Part shown: piece after piece, positions 6,853 to 8,542 of the stretch
Layout of the letters: the number at the start of each line of letters is the position of its first letter
Position numbering within the stretch: position 1 is the first letter of the stretch
NCBI GenBank assembly: GCA_021228405.1
Contig: JAJQRF010000002.1
Span: 434,001-498,000 of the forward strand
Length of the DNA: 64,000 bases
Origin: Pyrinomonadaceae bacterium
Lineage (GTDB): Bacteria; Acidobacteriota; Blastocatellia; Pyrinomonadales; Pyrinomonadaceae
Direction of reading: 5' to 3'
Made by a program: the position numbers and the translations under genes
The notes under the pieces: generated by a model
Database searches by the model: none
What the model was told of the DNA's origin: nothing
What the model saw: the letters and a program-made list of their open reading frames with translations, nothing else

Positions 6853-7179
6853 ATGAAAAACACATTAAAACTTACTTTGATTATCGCGCTTTTTTGCACA
6901 ACTGCCTTTGCTGATGGAAACATGGGCGGTGGTGGATTTGCACCTACAACTACAGAATCTGGCGGAGTTATGGGCACAGGAACTTTTGCACCTACAACTA
7001 CGGAATCAGGTGGAGTTATGGGAAGTGGCGGATTCGCAGATGGAAATATGGGCGGTGGTGGCTTTACCGACGGAAATATGGGCGGTGGCGGAAAGACCTG
7101 CACCGGGAATTGTGCAATCAATTCTGAAAATTCAGTAATGAAATTTATTCAGAATTATTTATTCTCGATTTTCGGCTAA
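6853..7179 (+). CDS. Small secreted glycine-rich repeat protein
   Basis: 108 residues. Residues 1-21 form a signal peptide (KNTLKLTLIIALFCTTAFA, cleavage likely after AFA). The mature part is built from two GFAPTTTESGGVMG-type units and three DGNMGGGG units, encoded by nearly identical DNA, so it can expand or contract. The tail has a CTGNC pair of cysteines and a hydrophobic end (MKFIQNYLFSIFG). Ribosome-binding site GAGGA is 6 bases from the ATG. It is divergent from the TPR/S24-like gene and convergent with the CI-like gene. Function unknown; an exported signal or surface peptide is one possibility. Confidence 0.7.
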   Translation: MKNTLKLTLIIALFCTTAFADGNMGGGGFAPTTTESGGVMGTGTFAPTTTESGGVMGSGGFADGNMGGGGFTDGNMGGGGKTCTGNCAINSENSVMKFIQNYLFSIFG

Positions 7180-7261: not shown

Positions 7262-7714
7262 TCATTCTTCCGAGTTTTTCGGATCATTTTTTGAAGGCGC
7301 AAGAGATTCGTCGATTTTCTTTTCCGCCTTAATTCGATTTGGAGTTAATTTAACGACCTTTTCTTGAGAGTCTGATTCCTGATTCTCGAAAAGCTCGGTA
7401 AAAACTTCAAGACATTGCTGACGGACAAATGTTTTCATTTGGTCTGACACTATAATTGTGTCTAAATTGTCTTGTTTCAAAACGAATTTGTCGCCTTTGC
7501 CCGTCAAAAGCCAATGAACGGAATAGCCCGTGCGTTCCGCAATTTTCAGCAGAACGTTTGCCTCAGGCAATCTTCCGTTCAGGTAGTTTCGCGCCGCTTG
7601 ATAGGAAATGTCCAGAATCTGCGCCAATTCGTTTGGCTGTTTCGTTCCGCATATTTCCGTCAATCTCTCGACGTAAAACTTTTTTTCTTCAATATCTGTT
7701 TTCTCGCTTGACAT
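7262..7714 (-). CDS. CI-repressor-like helix-turn-helix protein
   Basis: 150 residues. Residues about 12-77 form a phage CI-type HTH: LTEICGTKQPNELAQILDIS, QAARNYLNGRLPEANVLLKIAERTGYSVHWLLTGKG. The rest is charged and shows no S24 peptidase domain, unlike whole CI/LexA repressors; an S24-like domain without an HTH lies 0.5 kb away in the TPR protein. A 30-bp operator-like palindrome sits on its own promoter, which suggests autorepression. It may be a remnant of phage regulation put to host use. Confidence 0.78.
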   Translation of the reverse strand: MSSEKTDIEEKKFYVERLTEICGTKQPNELAQILDISYQAARNYLNGRLPEANVLLKIAERTGYSVHWLLTGKGDKFVLKQDNLDTIIVSDQMKTFVRQQCLEVFTELFENQESDSQEKVVKLTPNRIKAEKKIDESLAPSKNDPKNSEE

Positions 7715-7719
7715 GATAA

Positions 7720-7749
7720 AACAAGTGTGTCATATTTTACACACTTGTT
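7720..7749. promoter_or_regulatory. Operator/promoter of the CI-like gene
   Basis: 11-bp perfect arms AACAAGTGTGT (7720-7730) and ACACACTTGTT (7739-7749) with an 8-nt centre. On the minus strand a promoter reads -35 TTGCTG (7758-7763), 18 nt, -10 TAAAAT (7734-7739), so the -10 box lies in the centre of the palindrome. The start codon is 6 bases away. The geometry is that of an autorepressor site. Confidence 0.72.
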
Positions 7750-7889
7750 CAATCAGTCAGCAACGATTTAACAGTAAAACTGAGAAATACCGCAAGACAA
7801 GCTTGGGTAAATAAAATTTGAATATCTATCATTTTTTTCTTCTTGGATTGGTTTGTTTTGCGGTTTATTTCTCAGGTTGACATCTAAAA

Positions 7890-8161
7890 GTTTCGCGACT
7901 AACTGCGCCTTGCAGTGGACGCGAACCGGGGGAAACGGTGTGGGAGACGTTTCCCTCGTCAAAAAGATTTAGCGGCTATCTGCGCCTTGCAGTAGACGCG
8001 AATCGGGGTAGACGGTGTGGGAGACGTTTATCCCGTCAAAACTTGGCAACGACTGCGCCTTGCAGGAGTTGCAAAACCGGGGGAAACGGTGTGGGAGACG
8101 TTTCCCTCGTCAAATTTTAAAGCTAAAAAATGCCGCAGACTTTAATGTTCGCGGCGTTTTT
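7890..8161 (+). ncRNA. Candidate structured RNA: three tandem two-hairpin modules
   Basis: Copies at about 7892-7960, 7966-8037 and 8043-8111. Each has hairpin 1 with invariant tip CTGCGCCTTGCAG and a variable outer stem (TTCGCG/CGCGAA; GCG/CGC; GCAAC/GTTGC), then hairpin 2 with invariant loop GTGTGGGAGA closed by GGGAAACG/CGTTTCCC in copies 1 and 3 or GGGGTAGACG/CGTTTATCCC in copy 2. Copy 2 pairs fully only if G-U wobbles are allowed on the plus strand; on the minus strand they become A-C mismatches. A terminator-like stem follows. TTGACA occurs at 7877-7882, with only a weak -10. No open frame explains the conservation. Not recognised as a known riboswitch. Confidence 0.6.
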
Positions 8162-8166
8162 TTATT
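8125..8166. terminator. Two-way intrinsic terminator
   Basis: Stem GCCGC (8132-8136) / GCGGC (8151-8155), flanked by an A-run on one side and a T-run on the other, so it reads as a terminator on both strands. It would end the candidate RNA on the plus strand and the receiver-domain gene on the minus strand. Confidence 0.75.
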
Positions 8167-8542
8167 CTTGCTGGATATTTTCGAGCAATGAGATTAATTT
8201 CTCAAAATCGGGCGGTTTCACGAGATGGGAGTTAAATCCTGCCTCTTCAGAGGTTTGAAAATCGGCACGATCCCCGTAACCGCTTAATGCGATCATAAAA
8301 ACGTCGCGCAGGTTTTCATTTTCGCGAATCGCCGCCGCGACATCGTGCCCGGTCATTTTTCCAGGTAAGCCGATGTCGCAAATAATTATTTGGGGCTTGA
8401 AATCGACTGCTTTTTTGATTGCGTTCTCGCCGTCAAACGCAAGTTCGACCTTATATTGGTTCATCTCAAGTAAAATTTGAAGTGCTTCGGCAGAGTCGGC
8501 ATCATCTTCGACAACTAAAATACGGCGCAAAATCTTTTCCAT
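8162..8542 (-). CDS. Single-domain response regulator (receiver only)
   Basis: About 126 residues, a complete REC domain and nothing else. ILVVEDDAD gives the acidic pocket, IIICDIGLPG the phospho-acceptor Asp, MIALSGYG the conserved Ser/Thr position and LVKPP the Lys. No output domain and no neighbouring kinase, so it probably works as a shuttle or a CheY-like partner of a distant hybrid kinase. The start at MEKILRR is preferred to an ATG 24 bases upstream; no good ribosome site separates them. Confidence 0.85.
   Translation of the reverse strand: MEKILRRILVVEDDADSAEALQILLEMNQYKVELAFDGENAIKKAVDFKPQIIICDIGLPGKMTGHDVAAAIRENENLRDVFMIALSGYGDRADFQTSEEAGFNSHLVKPPDFEKLISLLENIQQE

Follow-up and report, generated by a model that had tools for sequence, protein, structure and literature searches.

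The window analysed here, a stretch of 64,000 nt from the genome of a Pyrinomonadaceae bacterium, carries at 7886-8113 three tandem copies, of 75-77 nt each, of a two-hairpin RNA module. Copy 1 occupies 7886-7962 on the plus strand, as delimited by repeat comparison, loop alignment and fold; its first hairpin (about 7892-7925) has the loop GCCUU and its second (about 7927-7958) the loop GUGUGGGAGA at 7938-7947. Copy 2 follows at 7963-8038, with CTGCGCCTTGCAG at 7980-7992 and a tip loop from 8015, and copy 3 at 8039-8113, with CTGCGCCTTGCAG at 8053-8065 and a tip loop from 8089, both again on the plus strand. The copy starts lie 77 and 74 nt apart and the first loops, as the original prediction for this DNA had it, 77 and 73 nt apart. 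Copies 2 and 3 are 84% and 69% identical to copy 1, and CTGCGCCTTGCAG and GTGTGGGAGA are unchanged in all three, which bears out the invariant loop and tip sequences that had been claimed. The statement that copy 2 keeps its pairing only through G-U wobbles on the plus strand was slightly overstated: one pair of stem 2 changes in both partners, from G-C to U-A, the other differences being G-U or G-C. The plus-strand fold of 7876-8168 has a z-score of -5.2, equalled by none of 200 shuffles. The tandem arrangement is confirmed. The minus strand of the same piece folds less strongly (z -3.97; 0/200 shuffles equal), and for the shorter piece 7886-8021 the z-score is just -1.85, with 7/200 shuffles equal.

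Copy 3 is followed by TTTTAAA, as are many of the related RNAs described below, and the terminator stem that had been predicted is present in the fold as a hairpin with a U run at 8125-8162 on the plus strand, between the RNA and a convergent receiver gene; a simple terminator scan did not have this stem among its listed sites. Upstream, a consensus scan finds a predicted sigma-70 promoter at 7708-7736 on the plus strand (TTGACA, 17 nt, CATATT). By itself the scan gave four sites, compared with 1.7 in shuffles. Because this promoter, conserved among relatives, sits upstream of the modules, the transcript is likely to start near 7743, with a 5' leader placed at 7743-7885 (plus strand) from the promoter position, and to be about 420 nt long rather than the 250-280 nt guessed earlier.

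The gene divergent from the RNA, at 7262-7714 on the minus strand, encodes a CI-like helix-turn-helix (HTH) repressor (PF07022, 39.2 bits against a cut-off of 22). The six Pfam families listed for it at E <= 0.1 do not include a C-terminal peptidase domain of the CI/LexA-type cleavable repressors, and PADLOC lists nothing for it. At the start of the repressor gene, and overlapping the promoter, lies a palindrome at 7714-7755 (arms 7714-7730 and 7739-7755, 88% complementary; p 0.005 against shuffles), which is a candidate operator. A small open reading frame at 6853-7179 on the plus strand, with a signal-peptide-like start and Gly-rich repeats, has no Pfam match. In the receiver protein, the SduA match given by PADLOC is restricted to the receiver part.

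The RNA had been described as unmatched to any known family, and comparison with Rfam 15 agrees: no match in the window reaches the gathering threshold, the best being His_leader at 28.5 of 49 bits (E 0.014). The exact two-loop pattern is rare. In its own genome it matches three times, each time at the window locus, and among the 97 genomes searched, its own included, it occurs in one other. A covariance model built from the three window copies (R1) reaches much further: it matches 61 of the family's 119 genomes, the window's own included, and two main RNAs make up its matches. The window's kind, type A, has a module of about 78 nt present in one to three copies per locus. Type B, about 100 nt long, has three hairpins, the last of which has the tip GGUGUGGGAGAC in common with type A; likeness between the two is limited to this 3' hairpin tip and a C-rich 5' loop. 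Type B, too, is without a counterpart in Rfam 15, there being no match at threshold in six loci that carry type B RNAs or RNAs resembling them and, for three type B loci searched up to E 1, no match overlapping the RNA. The original proposal to model the three copies and search related genomes has thus yielded homologues, and these carry compensatory changes.

A model of type B (R3) matches 98 of the 119 family genomes, in 20 of 29 genera, at E <= 0.001, and 90 genomes in 17 genera at E <= 1e-20 (a hand count from the table); the eight genomes beyond the 90 are matched weakly or through RNAs of type A or of a third group, type C, discussed below. These counts come from a model trained on rows from the same family as the genomes in which it was searched. 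In a sample of 396 genomes from the phylum, the same model matched 30, of which 27 were same-family and three weak outsiders, and the type A model matched 27, 24 of them same-family. The six weak matches outside the family (G273, G337 and G495 with the type A model; G244, G389 and G483 with the type B model) were considered as signs of a wider spread, and all were taken as chance: G495 and G273, the two of them that were examined, have no tip loop. The exact tip-hairpin pattern found 57 stretches in the GTDB contig collection, 56 with Acidobacteriota-type titles, many of these Pyrinomonadaceae, and one titled just 'bacterium'. Type B is also carried by a MAG titled Aridibacter famidurans (L109). 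Judged from sequence matches and contig titles, the strong matches are confined to one Acidobacteriota family, the Pyrinomonadaceae. A phage or plasmid element was rejected as an explanation after searches of viral contigs (with one exact pattern), phages and plasmids gave no match.

Both alignments show conserved hairpins with covariation. In the 38 modules of the type A alignment (A2, from which L087 was omitted as a type C RNA and L088 as truncated by a contig end), 12 of 15 pairs show double, compensatory changes and 97.5% of cells are paired. For type B (alignment A3, 34 of 36 candidates, L047 and L103 being excluded as having other bodies), double changes occur at 11 of 26 pairs and 98.8% of cells are paired. 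None of 500 shuffles reached the covariation score in either alignment, and with structures slid along the alignments as a control, pairing drops to 33-52% for the two types. The original reading of a structured plus-strand RNA with no Rfam match is supported, and its homologues show compensatory changes.

The stems vary, but the tip is near-constant, with GGTGTGGGAGAC in 33/38 type A and 33/34 type B rows; in distant type B members the core GUGGGAG is kept and its surroundings have changed. The loop of the 5' hairpin is C-rich and unpaired, in the manner of anti-Shine-Dalgarno small RNAs, and follows C-N-CC-N-Y-G, a motif drawn up after the sequences had been seen, in 36/38 type A rows (two misfits) and 25/34 type B rows (nine misfits). 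Type A shows 12 different sequences for this loop in its 38 rows. In type B the loop is mostly CUCCCC, on a stem that is nearly invariant in closer relatives and variable in distant ones. In type B (L035:2038-2130, minus strand, and relatives) the middle hairpin keeps the loop GGGGUGAGGAC in many members, and this loop changes together with the first in some lineages. In 63 of 76 type A and type B loci the tip stem is followed by TTTT, against a background of 0.24. A TTTAAA or TTTTA lies 9-45 nt past the tip stem in 51 of the 76; the window shows this too, besides its separate terminator.

Types A and B have both loops, the C-rich one and the G-rich tip, in an identical order, as do several type C RNAs, and the CC and GGG of these loops are nearly constant. 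This pattern might arise if the two loops dock on one another within a single RNA, in a fixed fold to which a ligand or protein binds, no antisense pairing being involved. This we consider improbable: loop 1 varies among type A rows while the tip hardly does, and in type B a third hairpin stands between the two loops.

The loci in both alignments derive from searches that already favoured the stem or the tip, and a pattern for the tip loop alone is therefore a less biased test of the tip. It gave 48 matches in 12 genomes compared with five for the reversed pattern. Some of the matches sit on other RNA bodies, which we call type C, several of them with a C-rich loop. In five of these (L156, L184, L243, L249 and L250) a U run follows on from the tip hairpin. 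At L168, L173, L178 and L193 the tip loop stands on stems of zero to four pairs and looks like chance, and at L171 and L192 no clean tip hairpin appears in the minimum-energy fold (z -1.7 and -1.6). The fold of L156 has the GCCUU loop closed by C-G, as in the window, and its stretch 2025-2150 has a z-score of -4.8. This RNA (L156:2022-2114, minus strand) comes from contig C18 of the window's own genome and has the same CTGCGCCTTG loop and the same tip as the window RNA. L249 and L250, both from genome G032, carry two tandem tip loops and a CUCCCC loop. At least one type C loop agrees with the type A loop of its genome in four of seven comparable genomes (G000, G038, G008 and G110) and none does in G126, G139 and G037, so that agreement within genomes is suggestive only.

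Promoters and the repressor were compared across the relatives. All but one of 35 loci, a set that includes two repeats of one sequence, carry TTGACA or TTGACT 60-205 nt upstream of the first module, where 0.035 TTGACA per 140 nt would be expected; the one locus without it is L087, a type C RNA. At type A loci a TGTGTAAAAT-like -10 region often lies downstream of this element. Type B has a promoter-like site of its own, TTGCAA...TGCATAAT. The repressor family has 18 matches at E <= 1e-20, in 17 of the 119 genomes, and a divergent type A RNA adjoins 16 of them, which supports a link between the RNA and the CI-like repressor beside which it had been noted. The matches with no adjoining type A RNA are a paralogue in the window's own genome (L228; G000:C7:944667-945104) and a weaker match in G007. 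Viewed from the RNA, a detectable HTH neighbour is present at only 13 of the 28 type A loci fetched from relatives, some of which are cut by contig ends. Where a CI-like repressor gene adjoins, a palindrome often overlaps the type A promoter. Palindrome scores are higher, at 8.9 of 12, at loci with the HTH gene than the 7.4 at HTH-less loci (n = 17 and 17; p 0.002), with p <= 0.05 against shuffles reached at just 7/17 of the former and also at 2/17 of the latter. Taken with the divergent arrangement in the window, these patterns suggest that the window RNA is probably controlled by the neighbouring repressor.

The remaining neighbourhood is less regular. A HI0933-like flavoprotein gene on the other strand is a neighbour in 24 of the 28 relatives' type A loci, and all four loci without it keep the HTH gene. 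The receiver gene, which had also been noted beside the RNA, adjoins it only in the window's own genome among the loci compared, and a part for this gene is not supported. Type B has a protease gene upstream in 18 of 20 loci, the copy in the window's own genome being a matrixin by Pfam, and downstream a gene for a protein of about 670 amino acids in 16 of 20, with another gene or nothing in the other four. This protein has no Pfam match and is, in our reading, a membrane protein. Neither RNA is thus followed by one kind of same-strand gene throughout, as a riboswitch or leader would be: the next gene is opposite in type A, and the usual downstream gene of type B is missing in 4/20.

Type III toxin-antitoxin systems consist of tandem RNA repeats, a terminator and a toxin gene, and the tandem structured repeats of the window, with a terminator after them, resemble such an RNA. 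A cis-regulatory leader or an RNA antitoxin of this kind is nevertheless disfavoured and has very little chance of being correct. No toxin gene follows on the same strand, the next gene being convergent both in the window, where it is the receiver gene, and at 24 of the 28 relatives' loci, where it is the flavoprotein gene; and 25 of those 28 loci hold a single module, the exceptions being L017 and L024 with two and L014 with three. A ligand-binding leader, as one form of the earlier guess of a ligand-binding RNA, is unlikely because the next gene lies on the other strand. What the sequences do contain is, for each type, a promoter of its own, a terminator, covariation and no fixed flanking gene. 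The own promoters, U-rich tails and changing neighbourhood point to stand-alone small RNAs.

Drawing these lines together, we give about an even chance to the reading that the family consists of stand-alone small RNAs in which a C-rich loop serves for recognition and the 3' handle is shared, the window copy being repressor-controlled. On this reading the repressor would leave the palindrome and the RNA would be made from the TTGACA promoter. The C-rich loop of the 5' hairpin, mostly C-N-CC-N-Y-G, would pair with a G-rich partner RNA, most likely an mRNA, and tandem copies would offer more sites per transcript. The 3' hairpin with its GUGGGAG loop would act as a handle throughout the family, with a protein as its most likely partner; it may double as the terminator in several members. 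A protein handle fits a tip that is more constant than any other part and that different RNAs have in common.

A search for a target, made in five genomes with the 9-nt complement of the type B loop, found none: there were ten matches, with no gene shared among them. Five were the RNA gene itself, three lay in long open reading frames, one sat at the end of a contig and one a short way upstream of an ATG. In the window, SD-like motifs precede only 9 of 50 long open reading frames when the first ATG is taken as the start (control 6.4%), and GGGAG is near the start of none of the 50.

The partner RNA could also lie within the family. The first loop of type B, CUCCC, is complementary to the tip GGGAG, three tips per locus are present in the window and in L014, and in Listeria the UCCC sites of LhrC bind a 5'-GGGAG site of lapB, according to the sections of PMC4132741 drawn on here. 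Type A, with as many as three G-rich tips on one transcript, might accordingly use these tips to mimic a target and titrate type B through CUCCC/GGGAG pairing. Such an RNA sponge is unlikely, however. The pairing is just 5 bp, type B itself carries the same tip, and six type B rows with CCACCCCGG or CCCCCCAAAAGG loops retain the usual tip, so that no compensatory change accompanies the altered loop.

As regards the protein that would hold the handle, Hfq is uninformative, since 55 of 60 genomes, RNA-bearing or not, encode it. CsrB and RsmZ are protein sponges with repeated GGA-containing hairpin loops, and the window RNA resembles them in its tandem repetition and in the GGA within its hairpin loops; a csrA gene is present in the same genome. 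The tip GGGAGA would then be a CsrA-like site and the tandem copies a source of multivalency. The distribution does not fit: CsrA was detected in 8 of the 60 genomes, including G022 and G042, which lack any match to R1 or R3, and 15 of the 21 R1-bearing genomes among the 60 are without a CsrA match, bearing in mind that incomplete assemblies may hide genes. As CsrA and the RNA do not co-occur, unlike what a CsrB/RsmZ-like role would require, this explanation was rejected and we regard it as highly improbable.

A more specific proposal, which we put forward as possible but tentative, is that an RNA-binding protein of the Pyrinomonadaceae, yet to be discovered, recognises the near-invariant 3' hairpin GGUGUGGGAGAC as its handle. 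This hairpin would mark a number of small RNAs per genome that are otherwise unrelated and in many cases have a C-rich loop, and the tandem copy of the window would be a branch switched by a dedicated repressor. If this were true, the handle hairpin would define a small RNA network, and a nearly invariant hairpin of this kind could act as bait for the new protein. The wider interest of the family lies in its phylum. Few small RNAs are annotated in Acidobacteriota, and four distinct ones were counted in the sections consulted of a 2022 review (PMC9029176). The family described here, found in most of the 119 genomes searched, is supported by covariation and comes with a predicted promoter and a candidate regulator. 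Three forms of the tip sequence were not found in any paper searched, and among the titles listed from a literature search none concerned RNAs of this type. We conclude that this is an RNA family absent from the Rfam library searched and known from one Acidobacteriota family, and that its members are probable small regulatory RNAs.

Among known systems, LhrC1-5 of Listeria monocytogenes is a multicopy small RNA whose UCCC loop motifs provide several redundant target sites, each copy having its own promoter (PMC4132741, as far as the sections drawn on here go). The window RNA is likewise multicopy, with a C-rich loop motif and several redundant sites, but its copies seem to share one promoter, and the invariant GUGGGAG tip has no mention for LhrC in those sections; the sequence relation of the two was compared through Rfam alone. 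In the same sections the UCCC motif of LhrC, RNAIII and RsaE binds ribosome-binding sites (PMC4132741), and B11 of Mycobacterium abscessus has C-rich loops in the part of its description used here (PMC10470900). On these partial accounts, RNAIII, RsaE and B11 share with the present family a C-rich hairpin-loop motif and a stand-alone gene. The family differs from them in that SD-like motifs are sparse here, pairing with a target is a candidate mechanism, and conservation is strongest in a second loop, which is G-rich. Seen through its sequences, the outline is that of the known small RNAs with C-rich loops, and what is new is the near-invariant shared 3' hairpin and the divergent repressor.
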